Source: Syntrophaceae bacterium | Lineage (GTDB): Bacteria > Desulfobacterota > Syntrophia > Syntrophales > PHBD01 | Length of the DNA: 64,000 nucleotides | Assembly: GCA_013177825.1 (NCBI GenBank) | Contig: JABLXX010000001.1 | Span: 782,936 to 846,935, forward strand | Direction: 5' to 3' | In this document: piece after piece, positions 3,793 to 22,276 of the stretch | Layout: each line of letters starts with the position of its first letter | Position numbering within the stretch: the stretch's first letter is position 1 | Notes under the pieces: model-generated | The model's database searches: none | What the model was told of the DNA's origin: nothing | What the model saw: the letters and a program-made list of their open reading frames with translations, nothing else | Program-made: the position numbers and the translations under genes

Positions 3793-4062
3793 ATGAAAGG
3801 ATCCCTGGACAAGGCCTTCAAACAGGAAATCAAGGAACTGATCATCGAGGAGTGCGACCTGGCGGACCGCTTCCGCCCCGGGGACATCCGCGACGACGAG
3901 CCCCTTTTCGGACGGGACTCCCGCATCGGCCTCGATTCCATTGACGCCCTGCAGATCTCCATCGCCGTACAGCGCTACAACGTCAACATCACCGACAGCA
4001 AGGTCATGCGGCGCGTCATGACCTCCATCAGCGCCTTTGCCGATTACCTCCGGCCGGAGTAG
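3793..4062 (+). CDS. Acyl carrier protein 1
   Basis: This 89-aa acyl carrier protein carries the phosphopantetheine attachment motif GLDSIDAL with the acceptor serine at about residue 49. The LFGRDSRIGLDSIDALQ segment resembles the ACPs that accompany ketosynthase pairs in aryl-polyene-type clusters more than housekeeping AcpP. An AAGGA stretch about 9 nt upstream supports the start. The gene ends 4 bp before the ketosynthase gene and is likely the dedicated carrier for that KS/CLF pair. The basic N-terminus (MKGSLDKAFKQ) is unusual for an ACP. Confidence 0.88.
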   Translation: MKGSLDKAFKQEIKELIIEECDLADRFRPGDIRDDEPLFGRDSRIGLDSIDALQISIAVQRYNVNITDSKVMRRVMTSISAFADYLRPE

Positions 4063-4066
4063 ATGC

Positions 4067-5230
4067 ATGGAACGAAAGGCCTGCATCCGGGGAGGCGCCC
4101 TGTCGTGCTCCCTCGGGACGGAGATGGACGCCGTCATCGGCGCCGTGCGGGACGGGTGCACGCCCTTTGAAATGGTGCCCCTGGACCTGGCGGGCCTCCC
4201 CTACGGCCGTCCCTATTACCGGCTTCCCTTTCGGGACGGACGGCGCGACGCCGACGTGGAGCGGTTTTTCTACGACGTCCTTTTCGATACGGTGGCCCGG
4301 GCCGTTGCCGGCGCCGGCTGGACGGGCCGGGAACTGGAAGGTGCGGCGTTCCTCTTCGGGTCCACGTCCATCGACATTCCCATCTACGAGGCCGCCTATG
4401 CCCGCTCGGAGGAGAACGGGATCCATTTCTTCGTTCACGCCTCCCTCGGCTACGGTTCCATCGCCCATGCGGCTGCGGACCGGTTCGGCATCGGCGGACC
4501 CTGCACGACCTTCACCACGGCCTGCACATCCTCGGCCAACGCTATCCTGTATGGGGCCGGCCTGATCGAGACCGGTGTCGTCAACCGTGTCGTTGCAGTC
4601 GGGTACGATCTCTACAACGCCACCGGTTTCTATGGTTTCGAATCACTCCGCCTCATGGCACCCGAGCGCTACCGGCCTTTTGATGTGGACCGGGACGGGA
4701 TTATCATGGGTGAGGGGTGCGGCGTCGTTCTCCTGGAGCGGGGCGATCCTGCGAACGGTGGGTTCATCTTCCGCGGCGGCGCCAACCGGTGCGATCCCTT
4801 CAATGTCACGACCCACGAGGAGAACGGGGTGATCATCGCCGCCACCATGAGGCAGGCCCTGGCCGACGCCGGGGTGCCAGCGGATGAGATCGACGCCGTC
4901 AAGGCCCACGCCACGGGGAGCGACCTCAACGACCGGACGGAATGCGCAGGCATGCGGACCGTCTTCGGCGACCGCCTGCCTCCCGTCACGGCCGTGAAGC
5001 CCTATGTCGGCCACACCGTCGGTGCCTCAGGGGCGATCGAACTGCTGTTGATCACGGAGTCCCTGCGGAGGGGTTTTCTGCCTGCCACACCGGGATTCGA
5101 GAAAGAGGATCCGGATCTGGGCGTCAGCCCCCTGAAGGAGCCCCTGCCCATGAAAAAGGCGACGGTCATGCTCAATTACTTCGGGTTCGGGGGCAACTGC
5201 ACGTCCCTGATCGTGTCCGGCGGAGGCTGA
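4067..5230 (+). CDS. Beta-ketoacyl-ACP synthase (active KS of a KS/CLF pair)
   Basis: This condensing enzyme of the thiolase fold should carry out decarboxylative Claisen chain extension on ACP-bound intermediates. The triad is intact: Cys153 in TACTSS, His281 in KAHATGSD and His316 in KPYVGHTVGAS. The glycine-rich end GFGGNCTSLI is also present. At 387 aa it is slightly shorter than FabF. The next gene, two bases downstream, encodes a ketosynthase homologue without the active cysteine, so the two probably form a KS-CLF heterodimer as in aryl-polyene (ApeO/ApeC) or type II polyketide systems. The ATG at 4067 was chosen over an in-frame upstream codon at 4037 that overlaps the ACP gene. Confidence 0.88.
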   Translation: MERKACIRGGALSCSLGTEMDAVIGAVRDGCTPFEMVPLDLAGLPYGRPYYRLPFRDGRRDADVERFFYDVLFDTVARAVAGAGWTGRELEGAAFLFGSTSIDIPIYEAAYARSEENGIHFFVHASLGYGSIAHAAADRFGIGGPCTTFTTACTSSANAILYGAGLIETGVVNRVVAVGYDLYNATGFYGFESLRLMAPERYRPFDVDRDGIIMGEGCGVVLLERGDPANGGFIFRGGANRCDPFNVTTHEENGVIIAATMRQALADAGVPADEIDAVKAHATGSDLNDRTECAGMRTVFGDRLPPVTAVKPYVGHTVGASGAIELLLITESLRRGFLPATPGFEKEDPDLGVSPLKEPLPMKKATVMLNYFGFGGNCTSLIVSGGG

Positions 5231-5232
5231 CC

Positions 5233-6108
5233 ATGTACATCCACGGTGCCTCGGCCTTCATCACCGAACCGGGAACCCCGGCGCAGATCCTCAAGGAGGA
5301 ACTGGCCCGGGTATCCACGGCCTATTTCCGGCGGATCAACCGCTACATCCTCCTCTCCCTCATCGGCGCCCACCGCTGCGTAGCCGGCCGGACCGTTCCG
5401 GCGGACACGGCGGTATACCTGACGACGGAGCGGGGAAACCTGGGCGAGACGGAAGCGGTGCTGCGACAGATCTTCCGCCAGCACTCCCTTCCCATGCCCT
5501 ACAGTTTCATCAACACCATGTCGAACACGGCATCCTTCTACGTGGCCCAGGGGCTGGGCGCAGCGGGCCCGAACCTCTCGATTTCGGACCGCCTCCTGTC
5601 CTTCGAGCGGGGAATCGAGCTCCTGACCGTGGATTTCAGGCGAGGAAGGGCCCGAAGCGCCCTGCTCGGCGGCGTGGACGAAGCCAATCCCTCGGCGGTT
5701 CATTTCGAGCGGACTTATGGGATCCCGGCGGGATCGGTCCGGGGTGTCGAGGGGAGTGCCTGGCTCTGGGTGACGGACGAACCGGAAGGATCCATCGGCC
5801 GGATCCTGGGAACAGGTGCGGTCCGGGACGCAGCGGAAGGGGCGATCTGGCTGAGGGAGCGGACCGGCAGGTCCCCCGTTATCGCCTACGGCCTCTCCGT
5901 GCCGGCGGCGGCCCGTGAGGCCTGGAGCCGGACCGTCGGGGCGGTGGACGAGTTTGACTACCTCTCCGGGCACGGCTGGTTCGATTCGGCGACGGCCCTG
6001 GGGATCAGCCGGTTCGTCCAGGACTGTCCGGGCCGCCTTCTCCTTCACGTGACCTGCGACCGTCCGGGGCGCTACACACTGGCGGCCGTAGAGACCGCCG
6101 CGAAATAG
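5233..6108 (+). CDS. Degenerate ketosynthase-like protein (chain-length-factor analogue)
   Basis: This 291-aa protein keeps the ketosynthase-like segment around GAAGPNLSISDRLLSF. The residue aligned with the nucleophilic Cys of its neighbour is Leu121, so it cannot form an acyl-enzyme. The NAHGT-type first histidine is not found, whereas an SGHGWFDSATAL segment near residue 238 matches the second-histidine region. The protein is about 100 residues shorter than an active KS. These features fit the beta-ketoacyl synthase chain-length-factor group found in aryl-polyene and related clusters, where the partner shapes the product tunnel. The ATG at 5233 follows the KS stop by 2 bp. It is the last gene before a strong terminator and the opposite-strand arsM pair. 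Confidence 0.75.
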   Translation: MYIHGASAFITEPGTPAQILKEELARVSTAYFRRINRYILLSLIGAHRCVAGRTVPADTAVYLTTERGNLGETEAVLRQIFRQHSLPMPYSFINTMSNTASFYVAQGLGAAGPNLSISDRLLSFERGIELLTVDFRRGRARSALLGGVDEANPSAVHFERTYGIPAGSVRGVEGSAWLWVTDEPEGSIGRILGTGAVRDAAEGAIWLRERTGRSPVIAYGLSVPAAAREAWSRTVGAVDEFDYLSGHGWFDSATALGISRFVQDCPGRLLLHVTCDRPGRYTLAAVETAAK

Positions 6109-6176: not shown

Positions 6177-7013
6177 TCAGTGCGCCGGCCGGACGGCGGA
6201 CACCCGGATGCTGACCGCCGTGGCGGCGAGATCCGACAGCTCCTCCCGGGAAAGCCCCAGATCGCGGACCATGGTCTGGACCGTGGGATCGTTAAGCAGG
6301 AAGTCCACCGGGAAGACGTTTTGCCCGACAACCTCGACGTCCATGAATCCCGCGGCGGCGATCGCTCCCAGGTAATCGTCTTTCCGCGCGGCTCCGGCCA
6401 CGCAGCCGATCCAGGCGGTGAGTGACGCCTTGATCGCCTCCGGAAGATCCTTCGTCAGGACGATGTCCGAGACCATCAGCCGCCCCCCCGGTTTAAGGAC
6501 TCGGAAGGCCTCCCGGAAAACCTGCTGCTTGTCGGGCGAGAGGTTGATGACGCAGTTCGAGATGATTGCGTCGGCCTCCCCGTCCGCCACGGGCAGGTGC
6601 TCGATCTCGCCCAGGCGGAAAGCCACGTTTTCGTAACCCCCCTTCCGGGCGTTTTCCCGCGCCTTATCGAGCATCTCCGGCGTCATGTCCACGCCGATGA
6701 CCCGTCCCGAAGGTCCCACCTGCCAGGACGCCAGGAAGGCGTCGAAGCCGGCGCCGGACCCGAGGTCCACGACCGTTTCCCCTTCCCGTAGGGAGGCCAG
6801 GGCGACGGGGTTGCCGCAGCCGAGTCCGAGGTTCGCCCCCTCCGGGACGGCGGCTAGGTCCTCATCCGAGTAGCCGACGGCCTTGCCGATTGCCGCCGCC
6901 TGCTGTGTGCCTCCGCAGCAGCCCGCGATGGGCAGGCTGCAGCAGGAATTTCCCGTGACGGCGATCTTTCCGTACCCTTCCCGGACGCTGGTCCGGATGT
7001 CTTCGTTTTTCAT
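6177..7013 (-). CDS. arsM: Arsenite S-adenosylmethionine methyltransferase
   Basis: This class I SAM-dependent methyltransferase should methylate As(III). The SAM-binding motif [13 protein letters not shown] is followed by GVDMTPEML. The conserved arsenic-binding cysteines are recognisable in [12 protein letters not shown] and WIGCVAGA, and the N-terminus has extra Cys pairs (NSCCSL and GCCGG). At 278 aa it matches bacterial ArsM. A GGAGGATATTCG sequence directly upstream fixes the ATG at 7013; the longer frame to 7073 is not needed. It lies downstream of the AbrB-like gene on the same strand and probably shares its promoter. It interrupts the lipid cluster on the opposite strand and has no evident role in it. 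Confidence 0.92.
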
Positions 7014-7526: not shown

Positions 7527-8930
7527 ATGATCCCGGAACATTTCCATGCAGTTAACCAATCTCAAGATACAGGTGCCGATCCCTTGAACGTCTTGCTTGT
7601 TTCCTTCAATCGCTTGACGGCTCCCTATCCGGTGTATCCCCTGGGGCTGGACTACGTGGCGGGATCCGTTCGCGACCGCCACGACGTCCGGATCGTCGAT
7701 CTGGCCACGTCATCGCCGGAAGGTCTTCTCGAAGAGATCCGGCGCTTTGCGCCTGCCGTGGTCGGCATTTCGATCCGTAACATCGACAACACGGATGCCT
7801 CGGCCCCCCGGGCATTCGTCGAGGATTACCGGGAGATCGCGTCGGAGATCCGCTCCGTCTTCCCGGGCCCCCTCGTTCTCGGGGGAAGTGGCTTTACGAT
7901 TTTCCCGGATGAGCTGATGTCCCGGCTCGGGGCGGATTACGGAATCCTCGGCGAGGGAGAGCGCTTCCGCCTGCTCCTGGATGCCCTGGAAGAAGGCCGG
8001 GATCCGTCGGGCCTGCCGGGTGTCGTTGTGAAGGACGGCCCGGCTCCGGTGCCGGAGTCCTGGAACGGTCCCCTGGTCCGGCATTTTGAAGGCTCCGCCC
8101 TTCACGTTGTGGCATATCTCGCCCGCGGGGGCATGATGAACCTGGAGACAAAGCGGGGCTGTCCCCACGACTGCCTGTACTGCACCTACCCCCACATCGA
8201 CGGCCGGACACTCCGCCGGCGTGACCCGGAGGAGGTGGCGGAGGAGGCGCGGATGCTCCAGGAAAAGGGGGCCCGTTTCCTTTTCCTGACCGACTCCACC
8301 TTCAATACGGACCTTTCCCATTCCCTGGAGGTGGCCCGTAGCTTCCGGAGAGCCGGCCTGTCCATTCCCTGGACGGCCTTTTTCGCCCCCTTCCGGGTGC
8401 CGACGGACTACTGGCGGGAAATGAAGGATGCGGGGCTGAGCCACGTGGAGTTCGGCACCGAGGCCCTCTCGGACCGGATACTGGCCTCGTACCGGAAACC
8501 CTTCCGGACCGCCGACGTCCTCCAGACCCATGAAGCGGCAGTGGATGCGGGCCTTCACGTGGCCCACTACCTCCTCCTGGGGGGACCCGGCGAGGACGGC
8601 CGGACCCTGGAGGAGACCCTGGGCCGGGCCGAGGGACTGCGCAAGGCCGTGTTTTTCCTGTTCCCGGGGATCCGTATCTATCCCCATACGGGACTGCACG
8701 AGGTCGCCCTTCGCGAGGGATGCCTGCAGGCCTCGGACGACCTCCTGGAGCCGAGGTTTTACATTTCCCCCGTCTTCGGGGAAGGGGAGCTGGAGCGGCT
8801 GGTGAGGCGCCACGCGGCGGGGAGGGGAAACTGGGTCGTGGGGGCCGGCGGGGCGGAGACGGCCTCTGTCGTCACGCGCCTCCACCGGCGCGGATGGAAG
8901 GGGCCGCTCTGGGAGCACCTGATCCCATGA
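7527..8930 (+). CDS. Radical SAM protein with N-terminal B12-binding-like domain (first copy)
   Basis: The 467-aa protein has an N-terminal Rossmann-like domain of the cobalamin-binding radical-SAM type (about residues 20-150, ending in YGILGEGE). It is followed by a radical-SAM barrel with CPHDCLYC (Cys212, 216, 219) that ligates a 4Fe-4S cluster. Such enzymes perform methylations, cyclisations or rearrangements on lipids, pigments and antibiotics. The histidine of the classic DxHxxG cobalamin motif is not seen, so B12 use is uncertain. The ATG at 7527 has AAGGAG about 13 nt upstream; the frame upstream overlaps the ars promoter and is not coding. The gene is coupled by ATGA to the polysaccharide deacetylase. 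Its substrate is unknown. Confidence 0.82.
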   Translation: MIPEHFHAVNQSQDTGADPLNVLLVSFNRLTAPYPVYPLGLDYVAGSVRDRHDVRIVDLATSSPEGLLEEIRRFAPAVVGISIRNIDNTDASAPRAFVEDYREIASEIRSVFPGPLVLGGSGFTIFPDELMSRLGADYGILGEGERFRLLLDALEEGRDPSGLPGVVVKDGPAPVPESWNGPLVRHFEGSALHVVAYLARGGMMNLETKRGCPHDCLYCTYPHIDGRTLRRRDPEEVAEEARMLQEKGARFLFLTDSTFNTDLSHSLEVARSFRRAGLSIPWTAFFAPFRVPTDYWREMKDAGLSHVEFGTEALSDRILASYRKPFRTADVLQTHEAAVDAGLHVAHYLLLGGPGEDGRTLEETLGRAEGLRKAVFFLFPGIRIYPHTGLHEVALREGCLQASDDLLEPRFYISPVFGEGELERLVRRHAAGRGNWVVGAGGAETASVVTRLHRRGWKGPLWEHLIP

Positions 8931-9769
8931 AGGCGGTGCCTTCCCCCTGGTCGCCGGCCCATCGGACCGGTATCGCCTCCCTGCTGCTGGCGGCAGGCGC
9001 GGCCGCCGTGGAGCCCCTGTGGGCGGTTGTTCCCCTGGCGTCTTTCCTGCTCCTCTGCGCCGTGCTGCCGTTCTTTTCCCGATCATCATTCTTTCTTCCC
9101 GTCATAAGTAGTGGCAATCCGGATGGAAACGCCGTTTCGCTCACCTTCGACGATGGGCCGGATCCCCGGGTCACGCCCCGTCTCCTGGAACTTCTGGCCG
9201 CGGCGGAGGTTCCGGCGGCCTTTTTCGTGACGGGGGAACGGGCGGCCCGATATCCGGAACTGATCCGGGCGATCCTCTCAGCGGGGCATGAGGTGGGGAA
9301 CCATTCGTGGCGACACGATCCGCTGCTGATGCTCCGCCCGATGTCCGTCCTGCGGCGGGAAGTCGAAGAAGCCCAGCAAATCTTCGCGGAGGCGGGAATC
9401 CGCCCGCGGGCTTTCCGTCCGCCCGTCGGGATCACGAATCCGCGCCTTCCGCTCGCACTCCGCGAATCGGGCATGATCTGCGTCACCTTCAGTCGCCGGG
9501 GCGCCGACTGGGGAAACCGGCGGGTGGCGGGATTGGCGGGGCGCCTTCTGCAACGGGTCCGCCCCGGTGACATCCTGCTGCTCCATGACGTCTCGCCCCC
9601 CGGGACTGGTGGAGTCGACCGTTGGCTGGCGGAAGTCGGAGCCCTTCTCCGGGGGCTCCGGGCGCGGTCGCTCCGGGCGGTTCTTCTATCCGATCTGATT
9701 GGACAATCCGTCATGGAGAGGACGTGCGGACCGGGGAAAAAAGGTTTTGATCCTCCGGGGCAAGAGTGA
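8927..9769 (+). CDS. Membrane-anchored NodB-type polysaccharide deacetylase
   Basis: This 280-aa protein belongs to carbohydrate esterase family 4. Two hydrophobic segments (about residues 16-29 and 31-50) should hold it in the inner membrane. The NodB domain follows, with SLTFDDGPDP (catalytic and metal Asp75/76), NHSWRHDP (metal His126 and His130) and RAFRPPVG. Family members remove N-acetyl groups from amino sugars of glycans or glycolipids. Its start overlaps the stop of the radical-SAM gene (ATGA), so it is translated with it. A promoter-like sequence separates it from the following dehydratase gene. Within this cluster it could deacetylate a sugar headgroup, but no glycosyltransferase is visible here. 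Confidence 0.85.
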   Translation: MKAVPSPWSPAHRTGIASLLLAAGAAAVEPLWAVVPLASFLLLCAVLPFFSRSSFFLPVISSGNPDGNAVSLTFDDGPDPRVTPRLLELLAAAEVPAAFFVTGERAARYPELIRAILSAGHEVGNHSWRHDPLLMLRPMSVLRREVEEAQQIFAEAGIRPRAFRPPVGITNPRLPLALRESGMICVTFSRRGADWGNRRVAGLAGRLLQRVRPGDILLLHDVSPPGTGGVDRWLAEVGALLRGLRARSLRAVLLSDLIGQSVMERTCGPGKKGFDPPGQE

Positions 9770-9871: not shown

Positions 9872-10255
9872 ATGACCGAATACTGGCAGGACCTGAAGCT
9901 GATAGGGAAAGAAGCCTCCGGCAGGATTGTCGCGGAAGCACGGTTCTCCCCGGAGTCGCTCTGGTTTTCCGGTCATTTCCCCGGGCATCCCATCGTCCCG
10001 GGCGTGGCGCTGTTATACCTGGTGGCGGAGGTTCTTCGCCGGGGCGAGGCCGGAGAAGATAGGGTGATCGTGGAATCCATCCGGAGGGTTCGTTTCCGCC
10101 AGCCTGCTCGTCCGGGTGACAATCTGACCGTTCATGTTGCCCCGGAACAGGGGGACATGGAAGGGGAGTACCTGTTCCGGCTTCTCTCGGGAGCGGAAAC
10201 GGTCTGCAGCGGATCCATCCGGACGCGCCGTGACCGGTCCGGGAATGCGTGTTGA
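9872..10255 (+). CDS. FabZ-like 3-hydroxyacyl-ACP dehydratase (hot-dog fold)
   Basis: This small hot-dog protein (127 aa) carries the FabZ/FabA-type active-site segment FSGHFPGHPIVPGVALL, with the catalytic histidine at about residue 35. It should dehydrate 3-hydroxyacyl-ACP to a trans-2-enoyl-ACP and so introduce double bonds into the chain. The start is set by a strong ggagga ribosome site before the ATG at 9872 rather than an in-frame codon at 9857. The ACP gene follows 29 bp later. With the PKS-type dehydratase at 16.7 kb it gives the cluster two unrelated dehydratases. The glutamate normally aligned with FabZ's second catalytic residue may be the one in LVAEVLR. Confidence 0.82.
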   Translation: MTEYWQDLKLIGKEASGRIVAEARFSPESLWFSGHFPGHPIVPGVALLYLVAEVLRRGEAGEDRVIVESIRRVRFRQPARPGDNLTVHVAPEQGDMEGEYLFRLLSGAETVCSGSIRTRRDRSGNAC

Positions 10256-10284: not shown

Positions 10285-10560
10285 ATGTCTGACGTCAAGG
10301 ACATTGAACAGCATATTCTTCGCATCGCCCAGATTGTCATCGACGAACTGAGGCTGGAGGATGTCACCCAGGAGACCTTCGATCCCGATCTGGATCTCGT
10401 GGATGAACTGGGGATCGACAGCATGGACCTGGCGACCGTGGCGCTCGTCCTTCAGGACGAATACGGCGTGAGCATCGACGAGGACGATTACCCGAAGCTG
10501 AAGACCCTCCGGCTGATCGCGGAATATATCCGGACCCGGCTTCAGGAAAAGGCTGCGTGA
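10285..10560 (+). CDS. Acyl carrier protein 2
   Basis: This 91-aa acyl carrier protein has the phosphopantetheine site LGIDSMDLATV with Ser46 as acceptor, in a strongly acidic protein with the usual four-helix pattern. GAGGAGGAAG upstream of the ATG at 10285 is a clear ribosome site; a frame extension to 10249 overlaps the dehydratase gene and was not used. It sits between the dehydratase and the first twin radical-SAM gene, which suggests it presents substrates to one or both. Confidence 0.9.
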   Translation: MSDVKDIEQHILRIAQIVIDELRLEDVTQETFDPDLDLVDELGIDSMDLATVALVLQDEYGVSIDEDDYPKLKTLRLIAEYIRTRLQEKAA

Positions 10561-10599: not shown

Positions 10600-11682
10600 T
10601 TGACGAATCGAACCGCCCCGGCGGACAAAACGGAAGGAAAATGGAAATTCGGCGATCTTCTTCGTGACGCCCGGGTGAGGGACCGGTGGGAGAAGGTCCG
10701 GAAGTACTTCTTCCTGCGGGAATCCACCTACGACATGACCAATCGCTGCAACATCCGGTGCGACGGTTGTTACTATTACGAGGGAGAAAAGCAGTTTGCC
10801 CCGGAAAACCGGGATCCCGGGTCATGGCGGGATTTGATGCGGCAGGAGAAGGAACGGGGCATCACGTACGTGGTCCTGGCCGGCGCCGAGCCCTCCCTGG
10901 TCCCCGAGCTTCTCGAGACCTGTTTCGAGATCATGCCCCTGGGAAGCATCGCCACGAACGGATTCCGGCTGATCCCACCCGCCGTAGGCTACAAGATCCA
11001 CATCTCCGTCTGGGGGAATGACGAAACGAGCCGGCGGGTCCGCAACGCCGCCAACCTCCTGGAGAGACAGCTGGACAACTACGACGGGGATCCCCGGGCG
11101 GTGTTCGTATACACCTTCACCAGACAGAATGTCCATGAAGTCGGGGAAGTGGCGGAACGGATCGCCGCCCGCAACGGAAAGCTCACGTTCAACGTCTTTT
11201 CAGCCCCTGTCGGCTACGAGGGACCCCTCCGGCACGACCGTTCTTCGCTGCTCCTGACCCGCCGGGCGATGCTGGAGACGATGGAGCGCTATCCGGAATC
11301 CGTTCTGTTTTCATCCTATAACGTCGCGGCCCATACGCACGGGCAGGGGCTGCATGCCCTGTACGGCTGCTCCTATCCCCGCCGGAACGCCTCCACGGAC
11401 ATCGGCCTCGGGCGCTCTTTCCGACAGTACCGGGCCGACCTGACCTGGGACCGGAGCGCGGCCTGCTGCGTTCCCGACACGGATTGCGACGACTGCCGCC
11501 ACTACGCCGCCGGCAGCGCCGTGGTGACGGCCCGCCTTTTCCGGCACGCCGCCGATCCCGACACCTTCCGCTCCTGGCTGGATTACGTGGACACGTATCT
11601 GTCGGTGTGGGTCATGGGTTACGAGAAGGGGGAGAATCTGTGCGACCGGCTGGTGGATCCGCCGGGATTCTCCGTGGAATAA
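10600..11682 (+). CDS. Radical SAM protein with C-terminal cysteine cluster (twin A)
   Basis: The 360-aa protein has TYDMTNRCNIRCDGCYYY near the N-terminus, with Cys50, 54 and 57 as the 4Fe-4S/SAM site. Around residues 289-299 it has a CC-x5-C-x2-C arrangement that looks like ligands for an auxiliary iron-sulfur cluster. It is clearly paralogous to the product of the gene at 12357: both share the cluster motif context, an AGAEPSL or GGEPTL segment and an IATNGFRLIP or CATNGLIRIP segment. The start is a TTG at 10600 preceded by gagggaggag. The function is unknown; its setting between an ACP and a lipoprotein gene suggests modification of an ACP-bound acyl chain or lipid. Confidence 0.83.
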   Translation: MTNRTAPADKTEGKWKFGDLLRDARVRDRWEKVRKYFFLRESTYDMTNRCNIRCDGCYYYEGEKQFAPENRDPGSWRDLMRQEKERGITYVVLAGAEPSLVPELLETCFEIMPLGSIATNGFRLIPPAVGYKIHISVWGNDETSRRVRNAANLLERQLDNYDGDPRAVFVYTFTRQNVHEVGEVAERIAARNGKLTFNVFSAPVGYEGPLRHDRSSLLLTRRAMLETMERYPESVLFSSYNVAAHTHGQGLHALYGCSYPRRNASTDIGLGRSFRQYRADLTWDRSAACCVPDTDCDDCRHYAAGSAVVTARLFRHAADPDTFRSWLDYVDTYLSVWVMGYEKGENLCDRLVDPPGFSVE

Positions 11683-11721
11683 CGGTCCCGGGAGAACCGG
11701 GAATAATAGAAAGGATGGACC

Positions 11722-12357
11722 ATGAAAACGAATTCCACGAGGTTCTGGAAGACCGGAGCCGCACTGCTGATTGCGATGCTGTTTCTCGCCGGCTGCGGGG
11801 CCGCCGGGGGCGTCAAGGTGGCCGTCCAGCAGGATAAATACAGCCCCGGATTCCGGGCCGCCGACGCGGGGCGGCTCAAGGGCAAACGGATCGCCCTGGC
11901 CTCCTTCATCAACCGGGCGGACAATACGAAGACCTGGAACTTCTACAGTCCGGACAAGAAACTGGTTTACGAGACATCGAGCCCGCTGGAGTCGTTCTTC
12001 TGGGAGTGCTACAGCAAGGCCTTCCAGCATGCCGGCGCCCGGCTCGTGGATTATCAGGCCGCCGCCTACCGGGGACCCGGTCCCTGGTGGTGGGGAGCAC
12101 CCCCTCCGGCGGCCGCAGCCGCCCCGAAGGGCGTTCCCGAGATCCAGCTTGTCCTGACCTCCGTCACGGATCAGGAGGTGCGCTTCCAGGTTTACGTTTT
12201 CAGGGACGGCGTCGAGAAATTCAAGAAGGACTATCAGGTAACGATGCCGCCGGGTGCTTCCCAGGACGTCAAGGACCTGGAGAAGCGGGCCTACGCCCTG
12301 GTCGACCTGACCTTCACGACCCTCGTCCGGGACCGGGATTTTCAGAAGGCCCTCTGA
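11722..12357 (+). CDS. Lipoprotein of unknown function between the twin radical SAM genes
   Basis: This 211-aa protein starts with a lipoprotein signal peptide and lipobox (LFLAGC, Cys at about residue 25), so it should be lipid-anchored in the inner or outer membrane. The mature part has an ASFINRADNTKTWNFYSP segment and an unusual Trp/Pro/Ala-rich stretch (PGPWWWGAPPPAAAAA) near residues 115-130. No catalytic motif is recognised. Its stop overlaps the next radical-SAM start (TGATG), so it is translationally coupled to an apparently cytoplasmic enzyme, an unusual arrangement. It may bind or transport the lipid product. Confidence 0.75.
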   Translation: MKTNSTRFWKTGAALLIAMLFLAGCGAAGGVKVAVQQDKYSPGFRAADAGRLKGKRIALASFINRADNTKTWNFYSPDKKLVYETSSPLESFFWECYSKAFQHAGARLVDYQAAAYRGPGPWWWGAPPPAAAAAPKGVPEIQLVLTSVTDQEVRFQVYVFRDGVEKFKKDYQVTMPPGASQDVKDLEKRAYALVDLTFTTLVRDRDFQKAL

Positions 12358-13355
12358 TGCAGACCGTCAGTTCCCTCCTCGACAGCGACTGGTATGAGCG
12401 GTACCGGCGGATCTCGCGTCTGAACATCCGCAGTTCCATTTACGACGTGACGAACCGGTGCAACCTGCGCTGCAAGGGATGTTTCTTCTTCTCCTCCGGG
12501 GAGCACGAGGCCGCGGCGGACGAGGAAGACATCCGCCAATGGGAGTCTTTCATCGATCGGGAGAAGGCCCGGGGAGTGAACATGGCCATCCTGATCGGCG
12601 GCGAGCCGACCCTCTTTCTGGACCGGGTGGAGGCCTTCTACCGGCGGCTCCCGACCTACTGTGCCACCAACGGCCTGATCCGCATTCCCCGGGACCGCTT
12701 CCCCGGCATGCTGGTGGGGATCTCCCTCTGGGGAGACGAGGAGGACGAGAAGGCCCTTCGCGGACGGGACGTCTTCAGCGTCTCGCGGAAGAACTACGAG
12801 GGTGACAGCCACACCTATTACCTGTACACCATCACCCCGAAGCAGATCGGCCGGACGGAGAAAATCATCCGGAAGATCGCCGATTCGGGGCTGAAAGTGC
12901 ACATGCAGCTCCTCACCAACGACGAGCAGGTGGAAGGCTTTCACTGGACCCCGGAGGCCCTGCGGGACGTCCGGGCGGAGATGGACGCGATGCTGGAGAG
13001 CTATCCCCGGACGGTCATCTCCTGTCGGTATTACCACGAGATCATCTGCACGGGGATGATGATGGGCCGCCCCTTCGGCTGGAACGAATGCCCCTCCGTG
13101 ACGGAGACCATGGACGACCGGGATCCGCGGCCGAAGCGGCTCATCCGGTTCATACGCTGGGCCGCCGACCTCCGGACGACGCACCGCTGTTGCACCTCCG
13201 CCACCCGGGACTGTTCCATCTGCAAGGACGGAGCCGCCCATATGAGCTGGGTCATGGTGAACAAACGCGAACACATGCGCTCAACCAGGGATCTCCAGAA
13301 CTGGATCGAAGTGTACGAGATGTTCGCCAAGCTCTACGGCTTCATTCCCTGGTGA
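12357..13355 (+). CDS. Radical SAM protein with C-terminal cysteine cluster (twin B)
   Basis: This 332-aa paralogue of the protein at 10600 has YDVTNRCNLRCKGCFFF (Cys35, 39, 42) as the SAM-cluster site and a C-terminal CC-x6-C-x2-C group (Cys278, 279, 286, 289) that may hold an auxiliary cluster. The ATG at 12357 overlaps the lipoprotein stop; the frame upstream is the lipoprotein gene in another phase. The gap to the next ketosynthase is 37 bp. Two divergent copies in one operon suggest successive or heteromeric steps in one pathway. The SPASM and PqqE/NifB families share the layout but I cannot assign a reaction. Confidence 0.83.
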   Translation: MQTVSSLLDSDWYERYRRISRLNIRSSIYDVTNRCNLRCKGCFFFSSGEHEAAADEEDIRQWESFIDREKARGVNMAILIGGEPTLFLDRVEAFYRRLPTYCATNGLIRIPRDRFPGMLVGISLWGDEEDEKALRGRDVFSVSRKNYEGDSHTYYLYTITPKQIGRTEKIIRKIADSGLKVHMQLLTNDEQVEGFHWTPEALRDVRAEMDAMLESYPRTVISCRYYHEIICTGMMMGRPFGWNECPSVTETMDDRDPRPKRLIRFIRWAADLRTTHRCCTSATRDCSICKDGAAHMSWVMVNKREHMRSTRDLQNWIEVYEMFAKLYGFIPW

Positions 13356-13392: not shown

Positions 13393-14646
13393 ATGCATCC
13401 CGATCAGAGACCGGTCATTCTCGGATACGACGCCGTTTCCCCCCTGGGAATCGAGTGGGAGGACCAGTGGCGGCGGGCCGTCAGGGGCGAAAGCGGCATC
13501 GGTCCCCTGACCCGCTTTCCCCTCCGGGAGGGTTTCCCCGTCCGGGTGGCTGGCCAGGTCGACGATTTCGACGAGACGCCCTATCCCTTTCTGAAGCCCC
13601 GGGAGATGGCCCACTGGACCTCTCCGATCTTCCGGCACGCCATGCTGGTGGTGCACCGGGCGCTCCGGCGGGCCGGCCTACCGATCACGCCGGAGGAAGC
13701 GCCCCGGGTGGCGGTCACCTTCAGCACCGCCGTGGGCGGCCTCGACGCCGTCATTTCCGCCGACCGCCTCCTCGTATCGGAAGGCCGTCTCCCCCATCCC
13801 TTCACGAACGCCAATTCCTGCGTCAACATGGTGGGCGGCAAGGTGTCGATCCTGACGGGGGCCACCGGACCCATCTGCTCCCCCATCACGGCCTGTGCCA
13901 CCGGATCCTCCTCCCTGATTCTGGGGGCGATGTTCCTGCAGCAGGGCATGGCCGACGCGGCGATCTGCGGGGCTGTGGACTTCTCCCTCGTGGAGCCGAT
14001 CGTCGCCGGATTCGCCACGATGAACGGGGCCTACCGCCCCAAGGAGGGCCGGCCGGAGGAGGATCCCTGTGCCGTGAGCCGTCCCTTTTCACGGAACCGG
14101 CGGGGATTTGTCATCTCCGAGGGCGCCGGCTGCTTCATCCTGGCCACGAAGGCCTTTGCCCGAGCCCATGGCATTCCCTGGCGGATCGAGGTGGCCGGCT
14201 GGGGGATGACCTCCGACGCCTACCACTTTGTGGCCCCCAAGCGGGAAACGATCCGGCGCTGCATGGCCGAGGCGATCGAGCACGCGGGCATCGCGCCCGG
14301 CGACGTGTCCGCCGTGAACGCCCATGCCGCGTCCACCCGGGTGGGCGACAAGGTGGAGGCGGAGGCCCTGGGGGATCTTTTCGGAGACGGGATTCCCCCC
14401 GTTTCGGCGAACAAGTCCCAGATCGGCCACGCCATGGGGGCCTCCAGCGCCGTCGAGGCGATCCTGGGCATGGAGGGGATGCTCCGGGACACACTCCTGC
14501 CGACGATCAATTACGACCCGGATCCGGAGATCGTTCTCGACTGCGTGCCCGGGGTGGCCCGGCTCAAGGAGCAGGAGTTTCTCCTGAAGAACGCCTTCGG
14601 CTTCGGCGGCTGCAACGCCTGCCTCGTCTTCAAAAGAGTGGCGTGA
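13393..14646 (+). CDS. FabF-like beta-ketoacyl-ACP synthase (KS 3)
   Basis: This 417-aa condensing enzyme has Cys168 in TACATGSSS, His311 in NAHAAST and His346 in QIGHAMGA, so the Cys-His-His triad is intact. The GFGGCNACLVF end is typical of the family. AAGGACGGC precedes the ATG. It is followed by a palindromic element and then a second FabF-like gene with similar architecture, so the pair probably arose by duplication, and each may serve a different chain-length or substrate step. In its first-histidine motif the usual HGT/HAT is HAA, a small deviation. Confidence 0.87.
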   Translation: MHPDQRPVILGYDAVSPLGIEWEDQWRRAVRGESGIGPLTRFPLREGFPVRVAGQVDDFDETPYPFLKPREMAHWTSPIFRHAMLVVHRALRRAGLPITPEEAPRVAVTFSTAVGGLDAVISADRLLVSEGRLPHPFTNANSCVNMVGGKVSILTGATGPICSPITACATGSSSLILGAMFLQQGMADAAICGAVDFSLVEPIVAGFATMNGAYRPKEGRPEEDPCAVSRPFSRNRRGFVISEGAGCFILATKAFARAHGIPWRIEVAGWGMTSDAYHFVAPKRETIRRCMAEAIEHAGIAPGDVSAVNAHAASTRVGDKVEAEALGDLFGDGIPPVSANKSQIGHAMGASSAVEAILGMEGMLRDTLLPTINYDPDPEIVLDCVPGVARLKEQEFLLKNAFGFGGCNACLVFKRVA

Positions 14647-14874: not shown

Positions 14875-16140
14875 ATGAGGCCCCCGCGGAACAGACGGGT
14901 CTTCGTCGTCGGGTACGGCGCCGCCACGCCCCTGGGTGGGACCCTTGCCCGGACCTGGGAACGGGCCGTCCGGGGCGAGGCGGGGTTCCGGATCATCACC
15001 CGCTGCCCGGTGGAAACCGCCTCGAACGTGGTCGGCGAGATTCCCGACTGGGACCCCCGGTCCTACCGCTTTGCCAGCGCCAAGGAGGTTTACAACTGGA
15101 ACGCCGCCTTCGTGCTGCTTACCATGGCCCTCTGTAAGGATGCCTTGGAGGACGCCGGCCTGGACATGGATGCCGGGACGGCGCCGCGGACGGCCTGCCT
15201 CGTCGGCTCGGCCCTCAACGGGACGGACGCGTTCCGGGTCGCTGTGGAGCAGCTCCGTGAACGGGGGCCCCTCCGGGTGAGTCCCTACCTGCTGCCCAAC
15301 CTCTGCGCCAACCTGCCTTCCGGTAAGGCGGGGATCCTCCTGGGCTTCACCGGACCCATCTTTTCCCCGCAGGGGGCCTGCGCCTCGGGAAACCACGCCA
15401 TCGGTCTCGGAGCCCGGATGATCCGGGACGGGGACTGCGATTTCGTCCTCGCCGGGGGCGTGGACATGCCGATCCTGCCGGAACTGGTGCATGGCTTCGA
15501 GAACATGAACGCCACCATCAAAATCGGCCCGAAGGACAGGGCCTGGAACGATCCGTCCAAGGCATCGAGGCCCTTCAGCCGGGACCGGCGGGGCTTCGTC
15601 CTGGCGGAGGGCGGGGCCGTCCTTGTCCTGGCGGCGGAGGACTGCCTCGGGCCGCAGGGACTGACGCCCCGGGCGGAGGTCCTCGGGGTGGGCTGGACCT
15701 CCGACGCCTTCCACTTCACGAATCCGAGACAGGAGACCATCGTCCGGGCGATCCGGGAGGCCATCGAAGACGGAGGCATTTCACCGGCAGACGTGCAGTA
15801 TGTCAACGCCCACGGAACGTCCACACCGAAGGGAGATGCAGCGGAAATCGCCTGCCTCCGGGAGGTCTTCGGCGGCCACCTGAAAAAGATGGCCGTATCG
15901 TCCAACAAGTCGCAGATCGGCCACACCCTCGGGGCGGCGGCGGCCATCGAGGCGGTCCTCACCATCGAGGGCATGCGGCAGGGGGTGATCCTGCCCACCA
16001 TCAACCACATTCCCGATCCCACCCTGGAAGACGTGGACGTCGTGCCCGACGTGGCGAGGAAACAGAGGGTGGAGATCACCCTTTCCAATGCCTTCGGATT
16101 CGGCGGCACCAACTGCTGCATCCTCTTCCGGGGGACATGA
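14875..16140 (+). CDS. FabF-like beta-ketoacyl-ACP synthase (KS 4)
   Basis: The 421-aa protein has Cys169 in QGACASGNHA, His313 in NAHGTSTPKG and His350 in QIGHTLGA, so the full condensing-enzyme triad is present, with the GFGGTNCCILF end. A GAGGA ribosome site lies 9 nt before the ATG. It shares the SRPFSR-RRGFV segment and overall plan with KS 3 immediately upstream, from which it is separated only by the palindromic element. The thioesterase gene follows after 81 bp. Together the genes from 13393 to 17552 form a KS-KS-TE-DH unit. Confidence 0.88.
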   Translation: MRPPRNRRVFVVGYGAATPLGGTLARTWERAVRGEAGFRIITRCPVETASNVVGEIPDWDPRSYRFASAKEVYNWNAAFVLLTMALCKDALEDAGLDMDAGTAPRTACLVGSALNGTDAFRVAVEQLRERGPLRVSPYLLPNLCANLPSGKAGILLGFTGPIFSPQGACASGNHAIGLGARMIRDGDCDFVLAGGVDMPILPELVHGFENMNATIKIGPKDRAWNDPSKASRPFSRDRRGFVLAEGGAVLVLAAEDCLGPQGLTPRAEVLGVGWTSDAFHFTNPRQETIVRAIREAIEDGGISPADVQYVNAHGTSTPKGDAAEIACLREVFGGHLKKMAVSSNKSQIGHTLGAAAAIEAVLTIEGMRQGVILPTINHIPDPTLEDVDVVPDVARKQRVEITLSNAFGFGGTNCCILFRGT

Positions 16141-16221: not shown

Positions 16222-16698
16222 ATGAAACCGAAACCCTTCCATCCGGAGCCGCTGGAGGACGAGCGGTTCGTCCGGGACCGGACTTCGGGGCTGGTCTGGC
16301 ACCGCTGCACCAACCGGACCCTGTACGCCGACACGGACCGCTCCTCTGTGGTCTACCACTCGAATTACCTCCGCTATTTCGAGATGGGGCGGGCATCCCT
16401 GATGCGCGACGCTGCCTACCCGTACCGGGAGATCGAGGAGAGCGGTTTCGTTTACCCCATCATCGATCTCGGGCTCCAGTTCTTCCAGCCGCTGCGCTAC
16501 GACGATCCCATGTGGATCCACACACGCCCGGGCGATCTGGAGCGTGTCCGCCTCCGGTTCGATTACGTCGTTACACATGCCGAAACAGGCGTCCTTGTCT
16601 GCAAGGGTCACACGCGTCACTGTGCACTGAACCGGGCGGGAAGGCCCGTGGCCGTGGACCCCAAAACGGTCCACCTGTGGAAGAGTTTTCCGTCATGA
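16222..16698 (+). CDS. 4HBT-family acyl-thioesterase
   Basis: This 158-aa hot-dog protein has YADTDRSSVVYHSNYLRYFE (about residues 35-54), the signature of the YbgC/4-hydroxybenzoyl-CoA thioesterase family, including the usual catalytic Asp region and Tyr/His positions. It should release or edit acyl chains bound to ACP or CoA. It overlaps the next gene by ATGA and follows KS 4, matching thioesterases seen in aryl-polyene-type clusters (ApeK-like). Whether it frees the final product or removes aberrant chains cannot be told from sequence. Confidence 0.85.
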   Translation: MKPKPFHPEPLEDERFVRDRTSGLVWHRCTNRTLYADTDRSSVVYHSNYLRYFEMGRASLMRDAAYPYREIEESGFVYPIIDLGLQFFQPLRYDDPMWIHTRPGDLERVRLRFDYVVTHAETGVLVCKGHTRHCALNRAGRPVAVDPKTVHLWKSFPS

Positions 16699-17552
16699 CG
16701 TCGAGGGAGGGGCAAGCGGTGCGAATCGCCTTCCCGGATGATTTCCTGGATCATGCCTTTGACGGCCGGGCAATCCTGCCTGCCGTGGAGATCCTGGAGA
16801 TCCTGGCCGGCTCCGTGCAGTGCCGCTTTCCGGATGTATCCGTGCGGATCATGGAGGAGGCCCTTTTCCCCCGGTTTCTCGTTCTCGATCCCGGATCGAC
16901 CGCCCTGGAGGCCCGAATTGAACGGCAGCCCCTCGATGCCGGCCGCGTGAAGGCGGTTCTCGGCATGGCGGTCCGTTCCCGCTCGGGGGCTATCGGCCGG
17001 TTGGCGGTGCACGGAACGGTTGTCTTCGGAGGGGAGAAGAAGACGGAGCCGTTCCCGGGAATGGACCGGGAGCCGGATCGGTCGGATCGGTTCGCCGTTC
17101 CAGCCGAGCGGCTTTATCGGGATCTGGTTCCCTTCGGACCGGCCTATCGGAACGCCAGGGACCCCATTGAGATCTGGGAGGAAGGCGCGAAGGCCGTTGT
17201 GGAGGCCCCGACCGGAGGAGATTCCCGGCGGTTTCTCGGATCTCCCTTCCCGCTGGATGCAGCCTTGCACGTTGCCTGCGCCTGGTGCCAGCGCTACGGC
17301 GACACGGTGGCGCTCCCCGTCGGTTTCGGGAGCCGGCGAATCGTCCGGCCGGTCGAACCCGGCGAGTCCTGCCGGGCGTGGATCGCTGCAAAAGGCTTAT
17401 CGGAGGGGGTGTTCCTCTTCGACATCCTGATCCTGGATTCCGGCGATCGTCTGCGGGAGGAGCTGTCGGGAGTCCGGATGCGGGACGTGACCCGGGGCCG
17501 TATCAGGCCGCCGGCGTGGATTCGGGAAGGATTCGGACGATCCGCCGGATGA
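16695..17552 (+). CDS. Stand-alone PKS-type dehydratase (double hot-dog)
   Basis: The 285-aa protein matches the dehydratase domain of modular polyketide synthases. The N-terminal hot-dog has DHAFDGRAILPAVE, fitting the HxxxGxxxxP catalytic motif (His20). The C-terminal hot-dog has LYRDLVPFGPAYRNA near residue 145 (GPxY/F-like) and FPLDAALHVACAW with the acid Asp188 followed by His192, fitting the DxxxQ/H motif. It should dehydrate 3-hydroxyacyl thioesters. As a discrete polypeptide it resembles the PS-DH proteins of iterative type II lipid or polyene systems. The ATG at 16695 overlaps the thioesterase stop. A 144-bp spacer with a possible promoter follows. Confidence 0.8.
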   Translation: MTSREGQAVRIAFPDDFLDHAFDGRAILPAVEILEILAGSVQCRFPDVSVRIMEEALFPRFLVLDPGSTALEARIERQPLDAGRVKAVLGMAVRSRSGAIGRLAVHGTVVFGGEKKTEPFPGMDREPDRSDRFAVPAERLYRDLVPFGPAYRNARDPIEIWEEGAKAVVEAPTGGDSRRFLGSPFPLDAALHVACAWCQRYGDTVALPVGFGSRRIVRPVEPGESCRAWIAAKGLSEGVFLFDILILDSGDRLREELSGVRMRDVTRGRIRPPAWIREGFGRSAG

Positions 17553-17696: not shown

Positions 17697-18008
17697 TTGG
17701 ACAGGATCATGACGCGTGAGGCGATCGAAGCCGAAATCCGGCGGATTTTTCTTCAGGAGTTCGAGATAGAAGACCCGGCCATGGACGTGGATCTCCGGGA
17801 GGCCTACCAGTTCGACAGCATCGACGCCATCGAGCTGCTGGTGGAGATCGAGCGGTTTCTGGGTTCCGAGCTGACCATGGAGGAGAAGAAGCGGGCCATG
17901 GACATCCGAACGGTCCGCCAGATCTGTTCTTACGTGGAAGAACTCGTGCGGGCCCGCCGACCCGGCGGAAGCCTTCCCATCGGAGACTTATGCAAAGAAG
18001 GGTCGTAA
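17697..18008 (+). CDS. Acyl carrier protein 3
   Basis: This acyl carrier protein (103 aa from TTG at 17697, 99 aa from the ATG at 17709) has the attachment site QFDSIDAIELL, with the serine at about residue 41 of the longer form. AGAAAGGTG lies at a suitable distance for the TTG, so that start is listed, but the ATG is an equally possible choice. The 3' end overlaps the next ketosynthase gene by 19 bp. That coupling suggests it is the cognate carrier of that KS. It has a C-terminal extension (about 15 residues) beyond the usual ACP length, produced by the overlap. Confidence 0.87.
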   Translation: MDRIMTREAIEAEIRRIFLQEFEIEDPAMDVDLREAYQFDSIDAIELLVEIERFLGSELTMEEKKRAMDIRTVRQICSYVEELVRARRPGGSLPIGDLCKEGS

Positions 18009-19225
18009 TCACCGCAGCCTCCGCCATTACACCCATCGGCCACGGCCGGGAGGATATCCTGCGCAGCCTCCGCGAGGGCTACTCCGGCGTGAAGCCCCTC
18101 CGGCAGGACGATCTCCTGGCGCCCTTCATCCATTCCCAGGTCTTTGGCACCGTCGATTACCCCATTCCCTTCGACTTCAAGCGGGTCAACCGGAAGACCA
18201 TGGGACCCGTCAGCTACTACGCATGCCAGGTGGCGAAAGAGGTCCTCGAGGCCTCCGGCCTGGAGCAGGAATTCATCACCTCCGGCCGGCTGGGCGTGGC
18301 CTTCGGATCCACCCATGGCAGTCCCACGGTGCAGCGGGACATCTACAAGGTCTTTCACAGCAGGGATCGGGCGGGCGTTTCCTCCATCGGGGCGGTGGAC
18401 TACCTGAAGTCCATGGTCCATACGACAGCTGTGAACATCACCAAGATGTTCGGCATCACCGGTCGTGTCATTGCCTCGTCGACAGCCTGTACCACCAGCA
18501 GCCAGTCCATCGGGTTCGGGTACGAGGCTGTCCGGTACGGCATGCAGGACGCCATGCTCTGCGGTGGGGCGGACGAATACGACACCACCACGGTGGCCGT
18601 CTTCGACAACCTTCTTGCCTGTTCCACCGCCTTCAATGACGAGCCCGGCCGGACGCCCCGTCCCTTCGACGTCCGCCGCGACGGCCTCGTGGTGGGAGAG
18701 GGGGCGGGAGCGGTTCTCCTGGAGGAATACGAGTCCGCCCGGAGGCGGGGAGCGACCATCCTGGCGGAGGTGGTCGGGTTCGCCTGCAACAACAACGGCG
18801 GGGACCTGATCCTGCCGAACCTGGCGGGAATCCGCGAGACGCTGCGCCTGGCGCTCCGGGATGCCGACATGGCGCCCGACGAGATCGATCTTGTCAGCGC
18901 CCACGCGACGGCCACGAAGATGGGGGACATCATCGAGGCCCAGGCCATTTCCGCCGTCTACGGCGACCGTCCCCTCGTCACGGCCCTGAAGAGCTACATG
19001 GGGCACACCATGGCCTCCTGCGGGGTGATCGAGACGATCCTGATTCTCTATATGATGCAGGAGGGGTTTGTCGCCCCGACCCTGAACCTGGAGGAGGTGG
19101 ATGAGCGGTGCGCCATGATCCGTCATGTCCCCTCTCTCGTGAAGACTCCCGTTCGGGCTGCGGCCGTCCAGAACTTCGCCTTCGGAGGGGTCAATACGGG
19201 CCTCATCCTCCGGAAGGAACCGTGA
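17990..19225 (+). CDS. FabF-like beta-ketoacyl-ACP synthase (KS 5)
   Basis: The 411-aa condensing enzyme has Cys167 in SSTACTTSSQS, His305 in SAHATATK and His339 in SYMGHTMAS, and a FAFGGVNTGLIL end, so it should be active. Its sequence around the active site (YKVFHSRD, VHTTAVNITKMFG) differs from KS 3 and KS 4 and recalls the aryl-polyene ApeR/FabF-like branch. It starts inside the ACP 3 gene and is followed 22 bp later by the PlsC-like acyltransferase. It might make starter chains or extend the finished chain; the sequence does not decide. Confidence 0.87.
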   Translation: MQRRVVITAASAITPIGHGREDILRSLREGYSGVKPLRQDDLLAPFIHSQVFGTVDYPIPFDFKRVNRKTMGPVSYYACQVAKEVLEASGLEQEFITSGRLGVAFGSTHGSPTVQRDIYKVFHSRDRAGVSSIGAVDYLKSMVHTTAVNITKMFGITGRVIASSTACTTSSQSIGFGYEAVRYGMQDAMLCGGADEYDTTTVAVFDNLLACSTAFNDEPGRTPRPFDVRRDGLVVGEGAGAVLLEEYESARRRGATILAEVVGFACNNNGGDLILPNLAGIRETLRLALRDADMAPDEIDLVSAHATATKMGDIIEAQAISAVYGDRPLVTALKSYMGHTMASCGVIETILILYMMQEGFVAPTLNLEEVDERCAMIRHVPSLVKTPVRAAAVQNFAFGGVNTGLILRKEP

Positions 19226-19247
19226 TTTCCCCTCCCGGACGGTGCAG

Positions 19248-20105
19248 ATGAATGCAACGCGACCCATGAACCCCCGCCGCTCCGTTTCCAGGGCGCTGAT
19301 CGACCTCCTGGTGACGCTCCTGCTATGGGTATATTTTCTGGCGGGCACGCTGATTCTGCCTTTCTATGGACTGGCGCACCTGTTCTCGAACGACCGGGAA
19401 GCGACGTTCCAGGGGATGAACAGCCGTTTCTACCGGGGTTTCTTCCGCCTGGTCCAGTGGCTGATCCCCGGGCTTTCCCTCCGGATCGGGGCGGACGTCC
19501 GCACGCTTCGCTCGACGGTGATCGTCTCGAATCACCTGTCCTATCTCGATCCGATTCTGTTCCTCTCCATCTTCGACCGGCAGAAGACGATCGTCCGGAG
19601 CGATTTTTTCCACTATCCGCTTTTCGGTTGGGTCCTGAAAACGGCGGGCTACCTCCCCTCCTCTGCGAACGGGGATCTCTTCTCAACCCTCATGATCAAG
19701 CGGGTTGAGGACATGGACCGGTACCTCTCCACGGGCGGGAATCTCTTCATTTTCCCCGAGGGGACGCGGAGCCGGGACGGCCTCCGGCGCCCCTTCAGCC
19801 GGGGGGCCTTCCGGATCGCCGCCCGCTGCCGCGCGCCGCTCGGTGTAGTCAGGATCGCGAACACCCACCGGCTGTTCCCGCCGGACCGATTTCTCTTTCG
19901 TACGGGCATCCGGGAGCCGGTAACGATCGAGTTGCTGGCGCTTTTGCACCCCGACTGGGATGCACCGGACTTTTCACTCAATGACCTGATCGGCCGGGTT
20001 CAGGCCCTGTACGACGAGCGGGAGCTTCAGGAACAGGAGAGGGTTTTTGCGGAAGCAGCCTGCCCCGACGGAGAGCGGCCGGCAGAAGGGACAGGGACGC
20101 CGTGA
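19248..20105 (+). CDS. PlsC-like 1-acyl-glycerol-3-phosphate acyltransferase
   Basis: This 285-aa membrane-associated acyltransferase of the LPLAT family has the HX4D motif in SNHLSYLDP (His96, Asp101) and the substrate-binding IFPEGTRS at about 168-175. A hydrophobic N-terminal segment (about residues 18-45) anchors it. It should transfer an acyl chain from ACP or CoA to lysophosphatidate or a related acceptor. It precedes a PlsY-like gene, so both acylation steps of phosphatidate synthesis are represented inside the cluster. An extra GTG start 6 bp upstream is possible. Related acyltransferases in aryl-polyene clusters acylate other acceptors, so the true acceptor is uncertain. Confidence 0.82.
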   Translation: MNATRPMNPRRSVSRALIDLLVTLLLWVYFLAGTLILPFYGLAHLFSNDREATFQGMNSRFYRGFFRLVQWLIPGLSLRIGADVRTLRSTVIVSNHLSYLDPILFLSIFDRQKTIVRSDFFHYPLFGWVLKTAGYLPSSANGDLFSTLMIKRVEDMDRYLSTGGNLFIFPEGTRSRDGLRRPFSRGAFRIAARCRAPLGVVRIANTHRLFPPDRFLFRTGIREPVTIELLALLHPDWDAPDFSLNDLIGRVQALYDERELQEQERVFAEAACPDGERPAEGTGTP

Positions 20106-22255: not shown

Positions 22256-22276
22256 TTTCAGCGCGGGGGATTGTCG

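Follow-up and report, generated by a model that had tools for sequence, protein, structure and literature searches.

The question raised by this locus is what two radical S-adenosylmethionine (radical-SAM) proteins do between an acyl carrier protein (ACP) and a ketosynthase (KS). The locus lies in a 64,000-nucleotide stretch (hereafter the window) of contig JABLXX010000001.1 from a Syntrophaceae bacterium, part of the 4.24 Mb genome G000, where the interval 10600-13355 encodes three genes on the plus strand: the radical-SAM proteins RS1 (10600..11682; TTG start, 360 amino acids) and RS2 (12357..13355; ATG start, 332 amino acids) and, between them, a predicted lipoprotein (11722..12357). The start of RS2 was set at 12357, the longer open reading frame from 12006 being a mere in-frame extension. 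The evidence taken as a whole points, with a probability of roughly 0.6, to RS1 and RS2 being obligately paired radical-SAM enzymes of an undescribed family with one predicted auxiliary-cluster domain. Together with ACP2, KS1, and KS2, they would form a type II fatty-acid/polyketide module of their own (ACP2-RS1-RS2-KS1-KS2) within aryl-polyene/dialkylresorcinol-like clusters of anaerobic Desulfobacterota and Spirochaetota.

The pair is embedded in an eight-gene module with the order HotDog dehydratase, ACP2, RS1, RS2, KS1, KS2, thioesterase, and polyketide-synthase-type dehydratase (PS-DH). In the window, all genes of the module are on the plus strand, starting with the HotDog/FabZ-like dehydratase (9872..10255; PF07977, 44.3 bits) and ACP2 (10285..10560; PF00550, 41.6 bits), which contains a DSM motif with Ser46, and continuing past RS2 with KS1 (KS_1, 13393..14646) and KS2 (KS_2, 14875..16140), both with PF00109/PF02801 matches, a 4HBT-type thioesterase (16222..16698; PF13279/PF03061), and PS-DH (16695..17552; PF14765). 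The ACP upstream and the ketosynthase downstream of the pair, as given in a preliminary description of this DNA, are both confirmed by Pfam. With shadow-frame calls disregarded, gene content was compared across 37 loci with full flanks, all of which hold the HotDog dehydratase, ACP2, RS1, RS2, KS1, and KS2; the thioesterase and PS-DH are each present in 36/37, a B12-binding radical-SAM protein of the TIGR04072 family in 31/37, and a polysaccharide deacetylase in 26/37. The core genes are tightly packed, with median gaps of 24 bp for ACP2-RS1, 21 bp for RS1-RS2 (n=79), and 39 bp for RS2-KS1. Locus L171 has a different order, RS1-KS1-other-RS2-KS2, with all parts retained. The Asp45-Ser46-Met47 motif of ACP2 is found in 69/69 sequences, and the catalytic Cys-His-His of the ketosynthases is invariant (74/74 for KS1 and 75/75 for KS2).

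The five central genes appear to be held to a common task because the median identity of their products to those of the window is 77% for RS2, 71% for ACP2, 70% for RS1, 70% for KS2, and 67% for KS1, compared to 37% for both dehydratases. This strong shared constraint is the main argument that RS1 and RS2 act on the cargo of ACP2 and KS1/KS2. Because an ACP and two ketosynthases accompany the pair in every full-flank locus, an acyl or polyketide chain carried on the ACP is the best guess for the substrate. An ACP-bound chain is thus a probable substrate; the acyl chain or lipid proposed in the preliminary description agrees with the constant gene context, whereas the acyl-ACP itself we infer.

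Among 84,980 species genomes scanned, 239 RS2 relatives were confirmed. The 80 best of these were kept; they come from Syntrophales, other Desulfobacterota, metagenome-assembled genomes (MAGs) of Spirochaetes, and a single Planctomycetota contig. Desulfogranum japonicum, Desulfofustis glycolicus, and Desulfosarcina widdelii are cultured carriers of the module. The closest named match, in a Deltaproteobacteria MAG (L004), is 97% identical to RS2 of the window, and identity to relatives across phyla ranges from 74 to 97%. In evenly drawn samples, RS2 is present in 28 of the 395 Desulfobacterota and 10 of the 296 Spirochaetota genomes, and all carriers also encode RS1 (28/28 and 10/10, respectively, one Spirochaetota RS2 in this count being truncated by a contig end). 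This invariable co-occurrence bears out the original picture of paired genes, which had nevertheless overlooked the lipoprotein gene between them. The 211-residue lipoprotein contains an LFLAGC lipobox and has no Pfam family match; among the loci read, a match at the RS1-RS2 junction was found only in L004 and L084 (same genus) and in L059. It is a lineage-specific protein outside the core that most relatives lack. RS2 identity between phyla is about the same as that within Desulfobacterota (75-78%), which, together with the patchy spread of the locus, suggests horizontal transfer between phyla. The Planctomycetota-labelled contig, 5.8 kb long and carrying the full RS1/RS2 core (L038, G041:C88), is the sole such case in 392 genomes of that phylum; it may be misbinned and was left out as evidence of spread.

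RS1 and RS2 are 28% identical (E 2e-31) in an alignment that spans nearly the full length of both. Both are radical-SAM proteins: PF04055 is the sole Pfam family over its cut-off for either (36 bits for RS1 and 33 bits for RS2, against 29.5) and is matched by 74/74 family members. No NCBIfam model reaches its own cut-off for RS1 or RS2, so that the pair apparently represents an undescribed family with no curated placement. Beyond RS1 and RS2, the relatives fall into RS3 (L116-L119, Planctomycetota), RS4 (single copies in L170 and L185), and distant singles. A FastTree phylogeny rooted on the distant singles joins RS2 with RS3 and RS1 with RS4, with modest support at some nodes (0.66 for RS1 and 0.72 for RS2+RS3). 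This grouping indicates that RS1 and RS2 are, as far as can be judged from their sequences, products of an old duplication, each allied to different solo relatives. They had been described as twins, which holds insofar as they are paralogues and fails with respect to the age of the duplication and the separate solo relatives of each.

The CNxRCxGC motif near the N-terminus is CNIRCDGC in RS1 (residues 50-57) and CNLRCKGC in RS2 (residues 35-42). The second shared motif, CC-x5/6-C-x2-C, lies near the C-terminus, within a confidently predicted domain, and reads CCVPDTDCDDC in RS1 (residues 289-299) and CCTSATRDCSIC in RS2 (residues 278-289). The preliminary description had reported both motifs, and its list of shared cysteines is correct as far as it goes; it omitted one further invariant cysteine upstream, C257 in RS1 and C245 in RS2. 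The C-terminal sets are therefore C257, CC289/290, C296, and C299 in RS1, and C245, CC278/279, C286, and C289 in RS2. The CX3CX2C triad, the C-terminal motif cysteines, and the upstream cysteine are each 100% conserved in 86 RS1 and 93 RS2 alignment rows (including the proteins of the window itself), so that the motifs are not due to chance. One alignment of 74 sequences, distant relatives among them, shows C245, C278, C286, and C289 as invariant; in a second one, two of the four distant relatives lack C245. The second cysteine of the adjacent pair, C279, is present in all RS1-RS4 proteins and replaced by Met in the distant relatives. Given the conservation of the other four residues and this replacement, the simplest reading is a predicted auxiliary cluster with four cysteine ligands (C245, C278, C286, and C289).

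An AlphaFold model of RS2 built with a diverse alignment, to which RS1 and distant relatives were added, has a predicted local distance difference test score (pLDDT) of 92.4; an earlier run from close RS2 homologues alone gave a pLDDT of 48 and was discarded. The nearest solved folds to the model are BlsE (Z 18.0 over 258 residues), SkfB (17.4), SuiB (16.4), and anSME (16.2), and the modelled fold accordingly resembles those of radical-SAM enzymes with auxiliary clusters. The structural matches listed include neither BtrN nor any other twitch dehydrogenase, which has no bearing either way. In a profile search against the PDB, SkfB ranks first, over the SAM core only, and other peptide enzymes are also among the matches. 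With the twitch/SPASM enzymes, such as BlsE, SkfB, anSME, MoaA, and PqqE, RS1 and RS2 have in common the fold and a cysteine-rich C-terminal extension, and differ from them in lacking a SPASM Pfam match and in the extra adjacent cysteine. The likeness to the twitch type, with a single auxiliary cluster, consists in four C-terminal cysteines that are invariant in RS1-RS4 (C245, C278, C286, and C289 in RS2) and a similar predicted fold, metal binding being putative here; the spacing C-x31/32-CC-x5/6-C-x2-C is a pattern of their own. Among enzymes that act on lipid chains, the tetraether lipid synthase (Tes/GDGT-MAS) is likewise a radical-SAM protein with auxiliary clusters (putative in RS1/RS2), but the similarity is a weak N-terminal match limited to the SAM core: the respective model, NF045702, gives 24.9 and 29.3 bits against a cut-off of 450.

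In the proposed mechanism, RS1 and RS2 would act on a chain that is built by KS1/KS2 and held as a thioester on ACP2, probably as a complex or sequentially on one chain. Each enzyme would use its CX3CX2C cluster to cleave SAM and would then remove a hydrogen from the chain, while the putative auxiliary cluster would accept the electron, with an oxidative result such as oxygen-free desaturation or formation of a ring or C-C bond; the dehydratases and the thioesterase would complete the product afterwards. Auxiliary clusters of known twitch/SPASM enzymes often serve electron transfer, which is why dehydrogenation, ring closure, or C-C coupling is preferred here. By this analogy, an oxidative outcome can be entertained, although only tentatively. 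In a still more specific and rather speculative version, RS1 and RS2 would together close a ring or couple carbons oxidatively, without oxygen, on a polyene held by ACP2. The product would be a lipid that is strained or carbocyclic, and the route would be unrelated to that of the anammox pair discussed below; if so, sulfate reducers, syntrophs, and spirochaetes living without oxygen would have a source of such lipids. Of the radical-SAM enzymes known to have C-terminal auxiliary clusters, most have peptide, cofactor, or sugar substrates. If the assignment to the ACP module is correct, carrier-bound acyl chains would join this list, and unusual lipids or pigments made without oxygen in anaerobes of two phyla would find an explanation.

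Several observations weigh against this interpretation. None of the RS1/RS2 family members has a known metabolite or a biochemically characterised activity, and a literature search that mostly did not reach subscription papers found none on the pair. The genome context fits an acyl chain and other ACP-bound units, such as an aryl starter, alike. The SPASM model PF13186 is matched by 0/74 family members at E 0.01, the closest folds are mostly those of peptide or nucleotide enzymes, and the case for an oxidative outcome is an analogy with what is generally known of twitch/SPASM enzymes.

The chief rival to the oxidative outcome is decarboxylation or starter-unit chemistry, whereby RS1 and RS2 would make an unusual starter unit instead of altering a completed chain: a small acid on ACP2 would be rearranged, decarboxylated, or coupled by them and then extended by KS1/KS2. 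BlsE, the nearest fold, is a radical-SAM decarboxylase, and the far higher conservation of ACP2-RS1-RS2-KS1-KS2 compared to the dehydratases would be expected for fixed early and varied late steps. However, a reaction cannot be read from fold similarity, and the core contains no adenylation or loading gene, an AMP-ligase match being found in just 5/37 loci; hence this alternative, although it deserves consideration, is unlikely.

It is much less probable that RS1 and RS2 are maturases of ribosomally synthesized and post-translationally modified peptides (RiPPs) or of proteins that are located in the cluster by chance. The closest structures by sequence profile, SkfB and other peptide enzymes, and weak matches to SPASM peptide maturases would favor such a function, but every RiPP model scores far under its cut-off and over the SAM core only, and the operon partners are an ACP and ketosynthases in 37/37 full-flank loci. 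Furthermore, no precursor peptide gene fits between the core genes, with their median gaps of 21-39 bp, although precursors farther away are possible. Placement in a family with a peptide substrate, the outcome that would have contradicted the preliminary description, was looked for, and none was found.

The remaining alternative draws on the ladderane loci, after which the TIGR04072 family is named; in Kuenenia and Desulfotalea, the radical-SAM proteins of these loci are Kuste3342/Kuste3343 and DP1853/DP1855, respectively (PMC2649909). Loci of this kind resemble the RS1/RS2 loci in that radical-SAM genes adjoin an ACP, multiple ketosynthases, a FabZ-like protein, and a deacetylase, with TIGR04072 in common; the window is itself of the ladderane type by virtue of a B12-binding TIGR04072 protein (7527..8930, plus strand; 389 bits against a cut-off of 360), followed by a polysaccharide-deacetylase family protein (8927..9769, plus strand; NodB/PdaB-type NCBIfam matches under cut-off). 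For comparison, the Planctomycetota genome G132, which bears hydrazine synthase, contains a locus (L137) with a gene order of the Kuste3335-3352 type, the radical-SAM genes of which encode one TIGR04072 protein and one NirJ2/AhbD-like protein. The latter matches RS2 with 37% identity (E 4e-7) over the radical-SAM core only. RS1 and RS2 have no homology to the Kuste3343-type protein outside this core, and they lack B12 domains. RS1/RS2 orthologues were not found in the anammox-marker genomes of the sample of 392 Planctomycetota; these genomes contain only weak distant matches or a single RS3 relative. The identification of RS1/RS2 with the Kuste3342/3343 pair was accordingly rejected. The RS1/RS2 locus, judged from these comparisons, has one family in common with ladderane loci and a different central pair. 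Thus, despite the TIGR04072 protein, deacetylase, ACPs, and several ketosynthases found in the window as in L137, it is highly improbable that RS1/RS2 are the ladderane-type pair and that the cluster makes a ladderane-like or polyunsaturated-fatty-acid-like lipid with the same enzymes, given that the pair in L137 is of another kind and that RS1/RS2 occur only in G041 among the sampled Planctomycetota. 'Ladderane' clusters of unknown function have been reported in Desulfobacterota of the Cariaco Basin (PMC9902471). Such calls in non-anammox bacteria need care because the loci carry the ladderane-associated family, yet differ in the core enzymes.

The RS3 relatives offer a further view of the family. 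In four Planctomycetota genomes, RS3 is a single RS2-like protein encoded downstream of LipS1- and LipS2-like lipoyl synthases (L116 9566-10663, minus strand; L117 5081-6196; L118 9581-10738; L119 9629-10720, minus strand); in L116, where the LipS1/LipS2 families were scanned, the neighbors match them, the other RS3 loci being assigned by gene-neighbor comparison. The motif of RS3 in L116 is RRCCTGVDRDCDSC. In L117, the surroundings include two GcvH-like proteins, two lipoate ligases, a DsrE-like protein, and Hdr-like subunits, similar to the sHdr-LbpA sulfur-oxidising system with LipS1/LipS2 (PMC10332631). By association, this context hints at carrier-bound acyl chains as substrates across the wider family, and RS3 could possibly catalyze an extra step on lipoyl-carrier proteins. 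LipS1/LipS2 resemble RS1/RS2 in that two radical-SAM proteins jointly act on a carrier-bound acyl chain (PMC10332631), as is proposed for RS1/RS2, but they belong to different families: neither NF053742 nor NF053743 (LipS1/LipS2) is among the 17 families matched by RS1 or the 17 listed for RS2 at E 0.001. The single RS4 proteins (L185 8759-9844 and L170 9398-10525) contain the same CC-x5-C-x2-C motif and are encoded near short-chain dehydrogenase genes.

The wider setting of the RS1/RS2 module fits, by gene content, an aryl-polyene/dialkylresorcinol-like cluster. Aryl polyene, xanthomonadin, arcuflavin, and flexirubin clusters (PMC3949708) have in common with the RS1/RS2 loci a KS, ACP, dehydratase, ketoreductase, and LolA, as well as an MMPL exporter, deacetylase, acyltransferase, and DarG/DarH. 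The flanks of the relatives encode a ketoreductase, LolA, an MMPL exporter, and glycosyltransferases, whereas those of the window encode DarG, DarH, a DrrA/NodI-like ABC ATPase, a PlsY-like protein, and further ketosynthases. Of the aryl polyene/dialkylresorcinol parts looked for (KS, CLF-like protein, ACP, ketoreductase, dehydratase, LolA, MMPL exporter, and acyltransferase), most are present across loci. A radical-SAM pair at the core sets the RS1/RS2 loci apart from the arcuflavin cluster, the gene table of which includes no radical-SAM protein (PMC3949708).

In the window, the upstream part of the cluster encodes, on the plus strand, three aryl-polyene-like elongation proteins: ACP1 (3793-4062, from sequence reading), KS_d (4067-5230; PRK09185/FabF type), and a KS-like protein without the active-site Cys (5233-6108; from sequence reading, with no NCBIfam match). 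An arsenite methyltransferase (6177-7013, minus strand; PRK11873, over cut-off) is encoded within the cluster on the opposite strand, with a match elsewhere only in L004. Downstream of PS-DH, also on the plus strand, are ACP3 (17709-18008) and an acyltransferase-like protein (19242-20105), both from sequence reading, separated by the Pfam-assigned KS_j (17990-19225), and a PlsY-like protein (20102-20728; Pfam, with a TIGR00023 PlsY match under cut-off). These are followed by a DarG family protein (20742-21260) and DarH (21257-22255), both over the NCBIfam cut-offs (NF053536/NF053550 for the pair), and by a second B12-binding radical-SAM protein (22271-23716; HpnJ/BchE-like, under all cut-offs). 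The DarG/DarH pair (20742-22255) represents part of a dialkylresorcinol/flexirubin-type pathway in this anaerobe. Another lipid-type locus, L173 (7120-14767), combines a single distant radical-SAM protein with deacetylase, glycosyltransferase, ACP, and B12 radical-SAM genes.

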